Source: Thuidium tamariscinum
Lineage: Eukaryota; Streptophyta; Bryopsida; Hypnales; Thuidiaceae
Direction: 5' to 3'
NCBI GenBank assembly: GCA_947034885.2
Contig: OX344750.2
Coordinates: 3,100,001 to 3,164,000, forward strand
Length of the DNA stretch: 64,000 nt
Under the pieces are notes generated by a model that was not told the DNA's origin, made no database searches, and saw nothing but the letters and a program-made list of their open reading frames with translations. Position numbers and translations under genes: made by a program. This document shows, in pieces, positions 24,428 through 64,000 of the stretch (position 1 is its first letter; every line of letters begins with the position of its first letter).

Positions 24428-25763
24428 GTTGGGTACGTGAACTGATTCTGCAATGAGTATGTCAAATTTCTGAAAAAGACGATCTAATGCGAGTTGGGAT
24501 GATCTTGACTCGCAGATGAACTGATCGATTTGGGTGGACTGCTGACATTCCATTCCGTACTTGAGCTCTTATATTTGAGAAGAGTGGAAGAGCCTTCAAA
24601 GCTACTTGCCCAGCTTCCGTTTCTTGCAACGTCATATGCTTTAATTGTCGGCCATTAAAAATGTTGATCGTGTCATTTTATAATATTTAGAATCTTTAAT
24701 CAAGGGTTTGTATTGAATGTTAAGTGGTCAAATCAGGGTACGTTTTCAAATATGTAAACTCCTAATTTCAGGAGGTTAACCCCTAAACGTCCAGAATCTT
24801 CTCTAGAGTCTAGAGTACAGGATTTGGGGAAAAATCATTATAAAGTACTATTTGGAAGAATACTTTGGAATTGACACATATGAATGTAAGTTGTAAAGTT
24901 TGAGTTTTAGATTCCATCTACAAGGTTAGATTCACCATTGCTATCACAAACAATATCTTCCAATAATTTCTTATAAATTTTGAAAGAGAAATTTCAAATA
25001 CCCTTTTAAATTTAGTTACTTGCAATTTTTGAGTAAAATTTGTCGGAATGGGTTTGAAATGAGATTTTTTTGACATGGTAATCTTTTGAAATTTTTGTGT
25101 GCTTATAATTTATGATCTTATTTTTACAAATCTAGTTTTGAACTAGAATCAATATAATTTTAGTTTGGTCAATTATTAGACATGCTTCTACATTAGTAGT
25201 TTTAGAAAAATATGTATTTTAGTAGTACCAATGTAGACCATTAAATAAGATAACAACTTGTTAAAGTATCCCCACAAATTAGGATGCCTTTCATTCAAGC
25301 AATAATGAGAATAAAACATTGTTTTCAACTTGTTAGTTGTTTAGAAATTGGATTTTGGAGCATTTCAAGGTTTATGAAATAAATCTATTCTCTTGTGGAT
25401 TTTCTAGCATAGTATAATATGTATGAAGAATTTGAACTATTAAAATGCTTTTTACTAAGACTTTCTGTGTAAAGCTATGGAGAGCAATTCCCATAAATAA
25501 TCATATATATTCTTCAAAAAAATTTAGAACTTATTGAAAAATTAATTTCTTTTTCAAATAAATTGATGTACAAATCATATTTACTTATATCAAAACTACA
25601 AACTTCATGGTGAATCTTGCATATGGCTACTAGAGCCTCTTAATGTGTAGATGATATGAAAAAACAAACCATTTATACAAAAGGGGTGACAAGAGATAAA
25701 ACACCCATCTAAGATATATAAATTAGGATTTGTAAGAGTTCAATTGTTTATAGTTGAATCAAA
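24428..25763. other. AT-rich intergenic DNA with a solo TTAA-type element end
   Basis: The first 200 bp would hold the reductase promoter; I found no clear TATA box. At 24776 the string TTAA is followed by CCCCTAAACGTCC, which has the form of the TTAA-element ends found elsewhere in the window. I could not find a partner end. Nothing coding was seen. Confidence 0.35.
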
Positions 25764-26141
25764 GTAGAAATTGTGTTCAAAATAGAATTTTACACTTCAT
25801 TTAGACTTAGTAGAATAACTTTAAAAAAAAATTGAACTAATAAAAGTTAGGAAATTGAGATGCATTCTATCTCTTAAAAACTATTTGACATTTCAAGCCT
25901 TCAATCAGAAATTATAGATAGCAGTGATGGAGGGATTGGAAGGGACATTTTCTATGACATTTTCAAACATCTTCTTTGAATTTTGTCAATCAGTTTTTTT
26001 TTGGAGGCTTGAAATGAAAAGTAGATTTTTCAGAGATGAAATTTAGCTTCAATTAGCATTTTTTTAGTTCAAAATTTTCTAGAAGAAGTTGTTCTTCTAT
26101 ACCTAAATGAGGTTTAAAATTCTACTTTACACAATTTCTAC
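25764..26141. repeat. 378-bp imperfect palindrome, probable foldback MITE
   Basis: The left arm starts gtagaaattgtgt and the right arm ends acacaatttctac. Inside, the arms continue to match: tagaattttacacttcattt against aaatgaggtttaaaattcta, ttgaactaa against ttagttcaa, and catttcaagcc (about 25889) against ggcttgaaatg (about 26006). Together the arms are about 140 bp each with a loop of about 100 bp. No target duplication was recognised. Confidence 0.6.
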
Positions 26142-26489
26142 ACTTGTCAATGACTAGTCAAGCTTTTGTCTTCAAATTATCCCATATCTATTGATGATTC
26201 ATATTGGATAATGAATTTCACTACAAAAAAGACCTTTCTACCCTTCATTAGTATAGATTTTTAATGAAATAATTCGCTTACTTTGTCATCAAAATTTGGT
26301 AGATGGTTAAATGACATTGATATTTGACTCAAAGGTTTCTCAATGGATTATCTAATATTTTGCAAATTATTTTTACATTTATTTAAAAATTCAATTATTT
26401 TCTCCATGAATTACCAAAAGAATTTGCCATTTGATTTTTAAATTAGTTAATGGAGAAGTTGCCTTGCACCTATGCTAGGAAGCAATGAT

Positions 26490-26706
26490 GCTAGTATATA
26501 AGCATGAAGATGTGAGCATGTAAGCCTTGAGCATGTATATAAGTAATTATAAATCAACTATTGATGATGATTATGACTTAAACACCTATAATATAGGTAT
26601 CTATATCATAGTTGCATTATAATTATCTCTATACTATAAGCACTTATACTATAGGTATATAGACTTGTAAGGTCATGAACTCACATTTTTAGGCTCACAT
26701 ATTAGC
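26490..26706. mobile_element. 217-bp MITE, copy 1 of a two-copy family
   Basis: The ends are GCTAGTATATAAGC and, at the right, GCTCACATATTAGC, which are inverted repeats of each other. Interior words such as gagcatgtaagccttgagc and cacttatactataggt also occur in the copy at 62492-62709. No ORF is present. The superfamily is not assigned because target duplications are unclear. Confidence 0.6.
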
Positions 26707-26944
26707 AATCCTCTACTAATAAGTAGAATGAATTTTTTTTTTAAATTTTGGCAAAAAATTTCATCTTAAATATTGACTTTATATAGTAGATACTTGCCAC
26801 TTTTGGATGCATTACATTGTATAACTGTATATCACAATGCACCCCAAAAAATAATAAATTCCCTACCTAAATTCCTACAGGATTTAAAAAAATTAATTAA
26901 TTAAAATTTATTTCCTCCCCTCCCTCTTCTCCCCTGCCCTACTT

Positions 26945-27150
26945 GTAACTTGACAATTAATATAGAACAATTTAAAATCTTATATCTCGTATTCCATATC
27001 TCGTATTCTATATCCATCCCATATTTGTATCTGTATCTACATGCACTATTTCTTATTCATACCACATTTTAAGTATCCATATTGTTCCATATTTTGTATG
27101 GTATCCATATTTATATTCATATAGTATCCATATCCATATATTGAATCTGT
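26945..27150. repeat. Degenerate TATCCR-type hexanucleotide tract
   Basis: There are runs of tatctcgtattc, tatccatatccatat and related words. A similar tract lies at 36330-36440. Both are preceded by an A/T-rich segment with C runs and followed by a gatcaa(c/t)gg(c)t word and a ttttttgg word, so the tract is probably an internal part of an older dispersed repeat. Confidence 0.45.
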
Positions 27151-27299
27151 ATTTGTACAACTCAAACTAAATCTCGCAAAGATCAACGGCTTGTGATTTT
27201 TTGGGAAATCAACGATATTTTGGAGGGGAAACATTTTTAAAAAAATCAATAGCATGTGATTTTTGAGAAGGAGGAATTACTAGCAAACCAAAAGGTGAC

Positions 27300-61676: not shown

Positions 61677-61794
61677 GTATATATATATATATATATATAT
61701 ATATATATATATATATATATATATATATATATATATATATATATATATATATATATATATATATATATATATATATATATATATATATATATAT
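61677..61794. repeat. (TA)n microsatellite of about 115 bp
   Basis: An almost pure TA run. Both sides carry a nearly identical flank, atatattcaaaagatgga (about 61656) and atatattcaaaagaagga (about 61789). The Tyr/Ile ORFs on both strands are products of the repeat. Confidence 0.95.
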
Positions 61795-62491
61795 TCAAAA
61801 GAAGGATTATAATTCCCATTACTTTATATAAGAATATACTAAAATATTTGAAGAAATTTAAAAAAACATTTTATTAATGAAGTAATAAAAAAATCACTTC
61901 ATTTACCCTCCACAATAATAGAATGATATTACTTCATTTTAGATGAATAAATGACTATTCCAATACAATCCATATATAATAGTGGATGTGAATAGCTTTC
62001 TAACTTATATTATATGGAGAATCAAGGTAGAAGCATCCAAATGTAAGACAAGTCATTCTTTGATAGCTGAAAATGACCTAAATCTAATTACTAATGGATC
62101 CAAAGTACACAAGTGAGGCTCTAAAGTAGACATGTGGGGTTCCAATAAGTTGTCACTCTTTAAAAAAGTTGCCAATCACCCAACTCAAAAGGAATTCAAG
62201 CTTAGATTATTTGGGTGTTTTCATACTCACTTTGGTATTAGTCTAGTGTTTAAAGTAGGTGCATCTACACAATTGTTTTAAAAAATTCATATTATATTCA
62301 TACAAGCTCATAAAAATATCAAACTAATTTTGTTGGTTTTCTAAACCATTTCCTAACATACACACATCATTTTTCTTTGTAGCCACCTTCAAAATTAAAA
62401 GATTTAGGGTAAGTGTTGCATATAGGTGCTTCTACCTTATATTCCAATTTGGAAAATTGAAATTGAAATCCCTCATTCGAAAGTGAACAAT

Positions 62492-62709
62492 GCTAATATA
62501 TGAGCATAGAAGTATGAGTTTATGAGCCTTGAGCCTAAGTATAAGTATCTTACACTCATTGAAGGTGTTTATAACATAAACTTTTATAATATAGGTGTTT
62601 AAAATATAATTACACTACAATCATTGAGGTGTTTATAATATAGACACTTATACTATAGGTGTATAGAATTCTAAGCTTATAAACTCATACTTTCTATGCT
62701 CACATAAGG
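62492..62709. mobile_element. 218-bp MITE, copy 2 of a two-copy family
   Basis: The left end reads GCTAATATATGAGCATAGAA and the right end, reverse complemented, CCTTATGTGAGCATAGAAAG, continuing as gtatgagttta on both. The arms are about 40 bp. The interior matches the copy at 26490-26706, including cacttatactataggtgt. No ORF. Confidence 0.6.
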
Positions 62710-62856
62710 TGGGTACACCCAAAATGGCACAATGCCTTGAAGCGCACTCTAAAATCAACCCTTAGATGGACTACAAATGTATTCCAAGTGGAGATTGAGT
62801 GAGAATGGCAGTTTTAGGCGGTAAGGTAGGAGGCTCGAACTCCGACAAGGCATTAA

Positions 62857-63711
62857 CCCTTAAATGCATATGCATCCAAAAAGTGGATGCGCCTTGGTCA
62901 ACCTTGATTCTAGCTTTAAATATAACCATTTTTGGAATTTGACTTTGACTAAAAAAATGAAGCTTGACAAGTTTTCTTTTAATTTCAACTTGAAATTTTG
63001 AAAAAATCCAAAAATTGAAAAAGTTATTGCAATTGCAAGCTCTATGTGTTAAAATCCAAAAAACACAATTTGTTGTATTTTCATTCATATTTTTTTCTTT
63101 TGAAATTTATTTTCAACTTAAATTAAAAAATTAAGTTTTCCATTCTTATCTTCATTAGTGGTAAAATTTTGAGATTATTCTAATATATATTCTAACTAAT
63201 GTAATTATTTTTTATCCGTAATTTTAAAAAATCACAATAATTTTTAGTTTTCATCAATAAATTTGAAATTTTTTGAGTAAATAGGATGTTCAATTTTCTA
63301 TTAGTAAAAAATGTCAAATTTTTATACTTCTATTAAATAAAGTTTTAAATATGGTTTAATAGGCAAATATTACTTCAAGGTCTTTGTCATAGTCGTTTGG
63401 GGTTTTAAAAATAGAATAATCAATTGAAAATTTTACACACTAATATCCATTGCTACTTGTACCTCTTGAGAAAATTTCAAATAATTTGGATCATTTCTGC
63501 TATTTTTACTTATTTATTTCTAATTTTTGCAACAAAAAATTATAACAATTACAATTTTTTACAAAATCAATTGAAATTTCTCCTAATATTATATAATCTA
63601 TAGTTTGAAGTAATAAAAATATAAGATCAATATTTGAAAGTAATCTAATATGCTAAATTCATCTTAGACATGATGTTTTACCAGATGGCAATGGATCTTG
63701 TTGTTTAAGGG
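62857..63711. mobile_element. TTAA-flanked element, family E (855 bp)
   Basis: TTAA lies at 62853-62856 and 63712-63715. The ends are CCCTTAAATGC and, outward-in from the right, CCCTTAAACAA: the first eight bases are identical. The short ORF at 62771-63088 (minus) crosses the left border, so it is not an element gene. Support is weaker than for families A to C because no second copy is in the window. Confidence 0.5.
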
Positions 63712-64000
63712 TTAAGAACCAAACATGGCTCAGAGGTACATTTTGCTTTTTGAAATATTCCACAATGTATAAAATGTGTACATTCTAGGTGGTGGTCGCT
63801 TTTAGAGCCCTATGGCTTTCAACTTCAAAATTTCATAATTAATTCCACAAAGATCCAAAAAAATATGAAACAACTTGGGTTAGATGTCATTTCATTTTGT
63901 CTTTCAAAGAAAATTTATTGAAAAATATTTCAAGATGTTTTCCCTCCCCAAAATTTAGCTTCAACGCTTAGATTGACACTTTATGAACCTCCTACCTTAT

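Follow-up and report, generated by a model that had tools for sequence, protein, structure and literature searches.

TTAA-bordered segments of the Thuidium tamariscinum genome are very probably non-autonomous piggyBac elements with full-length relatives elsewhere in this moss

The cut-and-paste transposon piggyBac is known mainly from animals, and it is also a standard genome-engineering tool, of insect origin. The present work concerns repeated TTAA-bordered segments in the moss Thuidium tamariscinum, found in a window of 64,000 nucleotides (the whole stretch of DNA analysed, G000:C2:3100001-3164000, on contig OX344750.2) of an assembly that comprises 363,211,507 bases in 19 contigs. It is concluded with high confidence that these segments are non-autonomous piggyBac elements, presumably moved by a transposase of full-length relatives located elsewhere in the genome.

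The papers cited here by PMC number are represented by excerpts, and in these the closest systems are described as follows. Elements of the piggyBac type combine a CC[C/T]T end with a TTAA target (PMC2872659), and Kolobok is a further TTAA superfamily, with 5'-RR ends (PMC9587614). PiggyBac is one of the seven superfamilies of miniature inverted-repeat transposable elements (MITEs) identified in angiosperms (PMC10004981), it is listed among plant superfamilies (PMC10794571), and its occurrence in "plants" is stated elsewhere (PMC2874221, PMC10140906, PMC10813416). Annotation counts were found for a fern, with 1,230 PiggyBac annotations that cover 122,417 bp, or 0.00% of the genome (PMC6890710), and for feather grass, with 1 annotation of 75 bp, likewise 0.00% (PMC8319324). 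One candidate report proved, in its excerpt, to be a false match to the word "piggybacking" (PMC10619864). A description of piggyBac in a moss did not surface in the literature search (main texts, among the matches listed). A previous sequence-only reading of the window had held that piggyBac is not usual in land-plant genomes; this is fair but not absolute, as the excerpt of PMC10004981 counts angiosperm PiggyBac MITEs.

The basis of the conclusion is directly observed, and consists of the inverted ends, the single-TTAA target, the collinear copies, the nested insertions, the transposase genes with the aspartates of piggyBac, and near-identical autonomous copies. The assignment to the piggyBac superfamily, which the sequence-only reading had favoured, is secure in view of the unrelated flanks, the single-TTAA sites and the full-length DDE_Tnp_1_7 elements with TTAA-CCC(C/T) ends. 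The superfamily is a known one, and it is the host and the abundance that are unexpected. The TTAA-bounded segments and ends of the window, in window positions, are given below.

24776..25328, plus strand: left end (TTAACCCCTAAACGTCC, with an exact TTAACCCCTAAA) that belongs to a further TTAA family.
30596..31229, plus strand: element A1, read as a non-autonomous piggyBac, 634 bp including both TTAA, defined by alignment with A2 and with genome copies.
31361..31547, minus strand: an extra TTAA end (TTAACCTCTAAAGTCC), outer end at 31547, detected with a degenerate end pattern and absent from the sequence-only list.
32214..33716, no strand assigned: TTAA-bounded segment E, ends CCCCTAAGTGCC and CTCTTGAGTGCC, a single-copy putative element recognised by its inverted ends.
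34480..35062, no strand assigned: TTAA-bounded element C, ends CCCTTTAAGGACC and TCCTTTAAGGACT, recognised by its inverted ends.
35469..36029, plus strand: truncated B copy with its right part missing, 75% identical to 58407-58962.
41315..42124, plus strand: element A2, read as non-autonomous, with GTAA at the left border and an internal tandem duplication of ~160 bp.
53452..53924, minus strand: element B2, an internal-deletion derivative of B, in the orientation opposite to the copy at 58407.
58407..59339, plus strand: element B1, a full-length B of 933 bp including both TTAA, defined by genome-wide copies.
62853..63715, no strand assigned: element D, read as non-autonomous, 863 bp including both TTAA, defined by genome-wide copies.

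The transposases were searched with the profile PF13843, which gave 116 scored matches from 658 first-look candidates in the genome, all above the cut-off and reaching 276 bits, on contigs C1-C10. The same profile matched in none of the 14 control genomes. For comparison, the plant light-harvesting profile PF00504 gave 49 matches, on eight of the ten transposase-bearing contigs (C5 and C8 being the two without), and the presence of light-harvesting genes on the same contigs as the transposases speaks against contamination. For one light-harvesting protein of the genome, the best single-domain PDB matches are the Physcomitrium structures 8htu and 7xqp, ranked after two much longer chains (620 and 1,048 aa), in line with a moss host. 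A scan for relatives in viral contigs, carried out once, confirmed none.

One full-length family, PB1, measures 5,096 bp including both TTAA. It was recovered in all four of the 8-kb regions fetched (4 of 11 known copies) with 99.96-100% identity, TTAA-CCC ends and unrelated flanks. The 11 copies lie at unrelated sites and differ by 0-2 positions per 3,984 nt, 36 of the 55 pairs being identical, and therefore the mobility of PB1 appears to be very recent. Its open reading frame (ORF) encodes 1,009 amino acids, with a Cys-rich C-terminus as judged from the translation; in Pfam this protein matches PF13843 only (E 4.9e-79), and the comparison with solved chains gave E-values of 1.1e-27 for piggyBat and 1e-22 for piggyBac. 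By hand count, residues D661, D766, D882 and D885 of the query, in which the first Met is absent, are aligned to D268, D346, D447 and D450 of the 6x67 chain, which we take to be the catalytic aspartates of piggyBac. A second full-length family (L048 and L049, 4,896 bp, 99.2% identity) and a third, PB3 (L047, 5,946 bp), also have TTAA on both sides. The search for a longer copy with a DDE transposase, suggested together with the sequence-only reading, has yielded DDE_Tnp_1_7 elements of 4.9-5.9 kb with TTAA-CCC(C/T) ends. The 30 fetched transposase cores form 14 clusters at 80% identity, with representatives 36-79% alike and with stops in 8/30, and the patterns of the first, second and third catalytic motif are present in 28, 26 and 30 cores, respectively.

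In comparison with piggyBac (PDB 6x67) and piggyBat (PDB 9c0f), the moss elements share the TTAA target, the CCC(C/T) inverted ends, and a DDE_Tnp_1_7 transposase with four aligned aspartates and a Cys-rich C-terminus. However, they differ in the land-plant host, in their size, and in the PB1 protein, whose 1,009 residues, against 578-594 in the solved chains, include a long N-terminal extension. The window elements resemble the coral CMITEs, as excerpted from PMC2872659, in being non-coding, in the TTAA target, in the piggyBac-type ends and in a presumed dependence on autonomous piggyBac, but they measure 0.5-0.9 kb instead of ~100 bp and reside in a plant. With the angiosperm PiggyBac MITEs (PMC10004981) they have in common the superfamily and the occurrence in plants, a comparison made by name only. 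Kolobok, in the excerpt of PMC9587614, shares the TTAA target, but its 5'-RR ends do not fit. The transposase of Kolobok is marked by a C/DxxH motif.

Three multi-copy non-autonomous TTAA families (A, B and D) are represented in the window, and segments C and E are putative elements recognised by their inverted ends. The seven complete segments, the truncated copy at 35469 and the lone end at 24776 that had been reported from the sequence all possess the ends described; the earlier coordinates omitted the TTAA, and the TTAA-to-TTAA spans given above run from the outer TTAA bases. The accompanying description, TTAA beside inverted ends that start with CCC, applies to most ends but not to A1 left (ACC), A2 left and right (CCT and TCT), C right (TCC), E right (CTC), B2 left (CCT) and the copy at 35469 (CTT), nor does the GTAA of A2 conform to it. 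Across the 17 tabulated ends, 12 start with CC and five with AC, TC or CT; the ends are CC[C/T]T-like, with several older copies off by 1-2 bases. TTAA is found on both sides in 15 of the 16 tabulated elements (7 from the window and 9 from elsewhere in the genome). Regarding the lone end, 24821-25328 is ~72% identical to L042:669-181 of the same genome, and a right end partner for 24776..25328 was looked for and not found. A large imperfect palindrome (25764-26141, 69%) lies downstream of it. The additional end at 31547 shows a 67% match to the end of a 932-bp element in L003.

Genome-wide copies of the three families were evaluated from first-look candidates, which are unconfirmed copies, 40 per family being scored. 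Family B has 8,999 such candidates, and all 40 scored copies (the window copy included) span 1-933 with 97-100% identity, six additional partial matches adjoining them. In ten fetched B copies, including B1, TTAA stands on both sides, the ends start with CCCC, the flanks are unrelated and the outer direct repeats amount to 0-2 nt. Family A, with 4,727 candidates, gave 41 matches for the 40 scored, 24 of them spanning 1-634; copies other than A1 itself are 73-78% identical, and the family is therefore old. When 300-nt flanks were included in the query, the start of the similarity in five other A copies varied from 2 nt outside the left border to 22 nt inside it, and its end lay 0-3 nt beyond the right border. 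For family D (1,044 candidates), 30 of the 40 scored copies, the window copy included, span 1-863 and the others are at most 21 nt short, with 89-96% identity apart from self. The collinear copies claimed earlier for A and B, with B2 opposite to B1, are thus borne out, since similarity stops at the TTAA or within a few bases of it; similarity extending more than a few bases past the TTAA borders, which would have spoken against such elements, was not seen for A and B, whose copies have unrelated flanks. Close to D, and not crossing it, 62490-62706 forms a repeat pair with 26488-26701 (72% identical). The left flank of D (62740-62852) contains GGCTCGAACTCC, which in our opinion resembles a tRNA B box and may indicate a short interspersed nuclear element (SINE).

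The ends were also evaluated against chance. In the window, TTAACCCCTAAA with ≤2 mismatches has 16 matches compared with a shuffle mean of 9.66, a count reached by 1/100 shuffles, while TTAACCCTTTAA by itself is not enriched there (14 against a mean of 16.6; 82/100 shuffles reached 14). The degenerate end pattern detected 19 ends in the window, where shuffled sequences averaged 5.75 and never exceeded 13. Convergent end pairs numbered 5 compared with a shuffle mean of 0.23, and 0/200 shuffles reached this number; one of these five pairs is spurious, and the pairs of A1, A2 and E escape detection with this pattern. The whole-genome search for the end sequence, another of the checks suggested, returned 9,906 + 9,840 = 19,746 exact TTAACCCCTAAA compared with 68 + 43 = 111 for the reversed-pattern control. 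Among 100 listed places, which all lie on C1, the neighbouring ends less than 3 kb apart comprise 18 convergent, 4 divergent and 3 parallel cases, and 9 of the 18 convergent spans have the size of B (930-933 bp). A rough calculation, in which half of the 19,746 exact ends is multiplied by 0.93 kb, suggests ~9 Mb of piggyBac-type DNA, or 2.5% of the assembly, a figure that leaves mutated ends uncounted and includes some ends that lack a partner.

These tests bear on the possibility, which we regard as unlikely though deserving of attention, that some segments, E above all, are not elements but chance TTAA-CCC pairs or old ends that have been rearranged. The single occurrence of E, the absence of enrichment of TTAACCCTTTAA words in the window and the spurious pair among the five would agree with it, but one 16-base pattern, TTAACYCYTRAGTGCC, is present at both ends of E as an inverted pair, and A, B and D are multi-copy. 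E was also considered as a captured gene or a decayed transposase and rejected as such, the best Pfam E-value being 0.074 across 8 open fragments and no other full copy being present. A relative of the interior of E lies on C8.

The window families appear to be linked to the transposase-bearing elements through their end sequences. The TTAA and the first 8-17 bases that follow it are alike in PB1 (CCCCTAAACGCC), PB3 (CCCCTAAACGCCCAAGG), the right end of A1 (CCCCTAAATGCCCAAGG) and B (CCCCTAAAGGACC), and the right end of A1 has 16 of the 17 bases after the TTAA in common with the PB3 end. Since the termini and short weak matches are what connects A, B and D to the autonomous elements, these are candidate sources of the transposase that would mobilise them. 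A clearer link between passenger and autonomous element lies outside the window, in L039, where a short element (~1142-1875) shares both ends of PB1, with 30/35 and 16/21 bases by hand count and with a mutated right TTAA. This short element sits in the neighbouring tandem unit, at the same TTAA position as the PB1 insertion.

Another explanation, to which very little probability is attached, is that the segments belong to a different TTAA superfamily, Kolobok or Sola3, and that the piggyBac transposases are merely unrelated neighbours. Sola3 likewise uses a TTAA target. No autonomous element was found whose subterminal sequence is that of A, B or D, and the TTAA target is also that of Kolobok (PMC9587614). 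However, CCC(C/T) ends are the piggyBac motif in the excerpt of PMC2872659, compared with the 5'-RR of Kolobok in that of PMC9587614, and 5'-RR termini were observed neither in the 17 tabulated ends nor in any of the ten B copies. Moreover, the full-length PF13843 elements carry the same ends as the window families, as the A1 and PB3 termini illustrate.

The target site of the piggyBac elements was assessed through empty sites, and four clean comparisons were obtained (L039, L060, L061 and L062), each gap-free at the junction and with one 4-base site. In L039, PB1 is located within a tandem repeat; another unit at this locus matches the joined flanks gap-free across the junction, with CTAA in place of TTAA. 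In L060 a young B is inserted in an older copy precisely at the TTAA matching window B1 59242-59245. L061 and L062 likewise contain a young B nested in an older one, at positions where the sequence of B1 is TTTA and ATAA, respectively. The expectation of empty sites with a single TTAA is thereby answered by four gap-free 4-base sites, TTAA in one and one-base variants in three. The search among the fetched loci, covering 17 elements, returned the L039 case only. L055 and L058 lie in tandem repeats as well, and were not counted because gaps are needed to match their joined flanks to the adjacent units. Two A copies on C2 (12366900-12367554 and 12367551-12368202) share a 4-base overlap, and in L022 PB1 begins at the TTAA that terminates a B element, both as expected if elements insert into one another's TTAA. 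The 3-bp TAA/TTA target of Tourist (PIF/Harbinger), as given in the excerpt of PMC10004981, was not found at the nested sites, where there is a 4-base site with symmetric TTAA borders. That the TTAA might instead belong to the terminal repeat, with the true target duplication farther out, is hardly credible. The palindromic TTAA and the CTTGTA directly outside both TTAA of B2 would suit it, but the outer direct repeats measure 0-2 nt in the remaining 15 of the 16 tabulated elements and in all ten B copies (B1 belonging to both sets), and the four gap-free comparisons show no extra duplication, which refutes this earlier caveat for B and PB1.

Several observations weigh against the interpretation as non-autonomous piggyBac elements. 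The left flank of A2 (41315), GTAA, is the sole exception among the 16 tabulated elements, and among five other old A copies an intact TTAA stands at both borders in just two, with a one-base change at one border or at both in the remaining three. Three of the four clean empty sites are one base off TTAA in the paralogue (TTTA, ATAA, CTAA), a fifth case, L063, shows a junction gap of ~9 bases and was left out of the count, and empty sites of the window elements themselves were not found. Both TTAA of B2 are flanked on the outside by the 6-nt direct repeat CTTGTA (53446-53451 and 53925-53930), which is read as a local repeat because a similar stretch recurs ~100 nt downstream. E has no second full copy genome-wide, the search returning only itself and a 227-bp internal match of 71%. 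Beyond the ends, A, B and D show only short weak matches to the autonomous elements (E 0.001 to 0.01), the longer matches in these comparisons being separate non-autonomous copies in the flanks. Transposase fragments were not found in the window by tblastn with translations from 34 genome loci (best E 0.42), and all three catalytic motif patterns are present in 25 of the 30 cores.

On the piggyBac interpretation, the transposase of the full-length relatives would recognise inverted ends of the CCCCTAAA type. The element would then be excised and pasted into another TTAA, leaving TTAA on both sides, and copies that retained the ends without the gene would be carried along and multiplied, giving families such as A, B and D. 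We infer in this way the biochemistry of cutting and pasting, a transposase that moves A, B and D, and a continuing activity.

Other features of the window are of a different nature. At 29888-30093 there is a near-perfect inverted repeat of 99 nt (96%) with CACTA-like ends (CACTATAAGAAAAAGGGG and CACTACAAGATAAAGGGG) and apparently TCA on both sides, presumably a CACTA foldback element. ORFs at 10778-14438 combine a C2H2-like N-terminus with a HAMSHFASSIQRSG stretch, without any Pfam family above the cut-off, and seem to us reminiscent of Plavaka/KDZ-type transposases. An ORF at 1820-2734 contains DUF4216 (1.4e-08), which we take to be a domain of plant CACTA transposons.

The literature searched contains little on the natural history of piggyBac in land plants. 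It seems probable that a diverse piggyBac radiation is live in this moss, comprising several autonomous families, one of which is mobile at present or was so until very recently, and thousands of non-autonomous copies that account for a substantial part of the DNA transposons of the genome. Near-identical intact copies together with many passengers would show piggyBac thriving in plants, which raises the question of inheritance from algal ancestors versus horizontal transfer. Such elements would also provide a transposase of plant origin whose excision may be scarless, and TTAA-bordered repeats in moss assemblies, which are easily left as unknown repeats, become classifiable.

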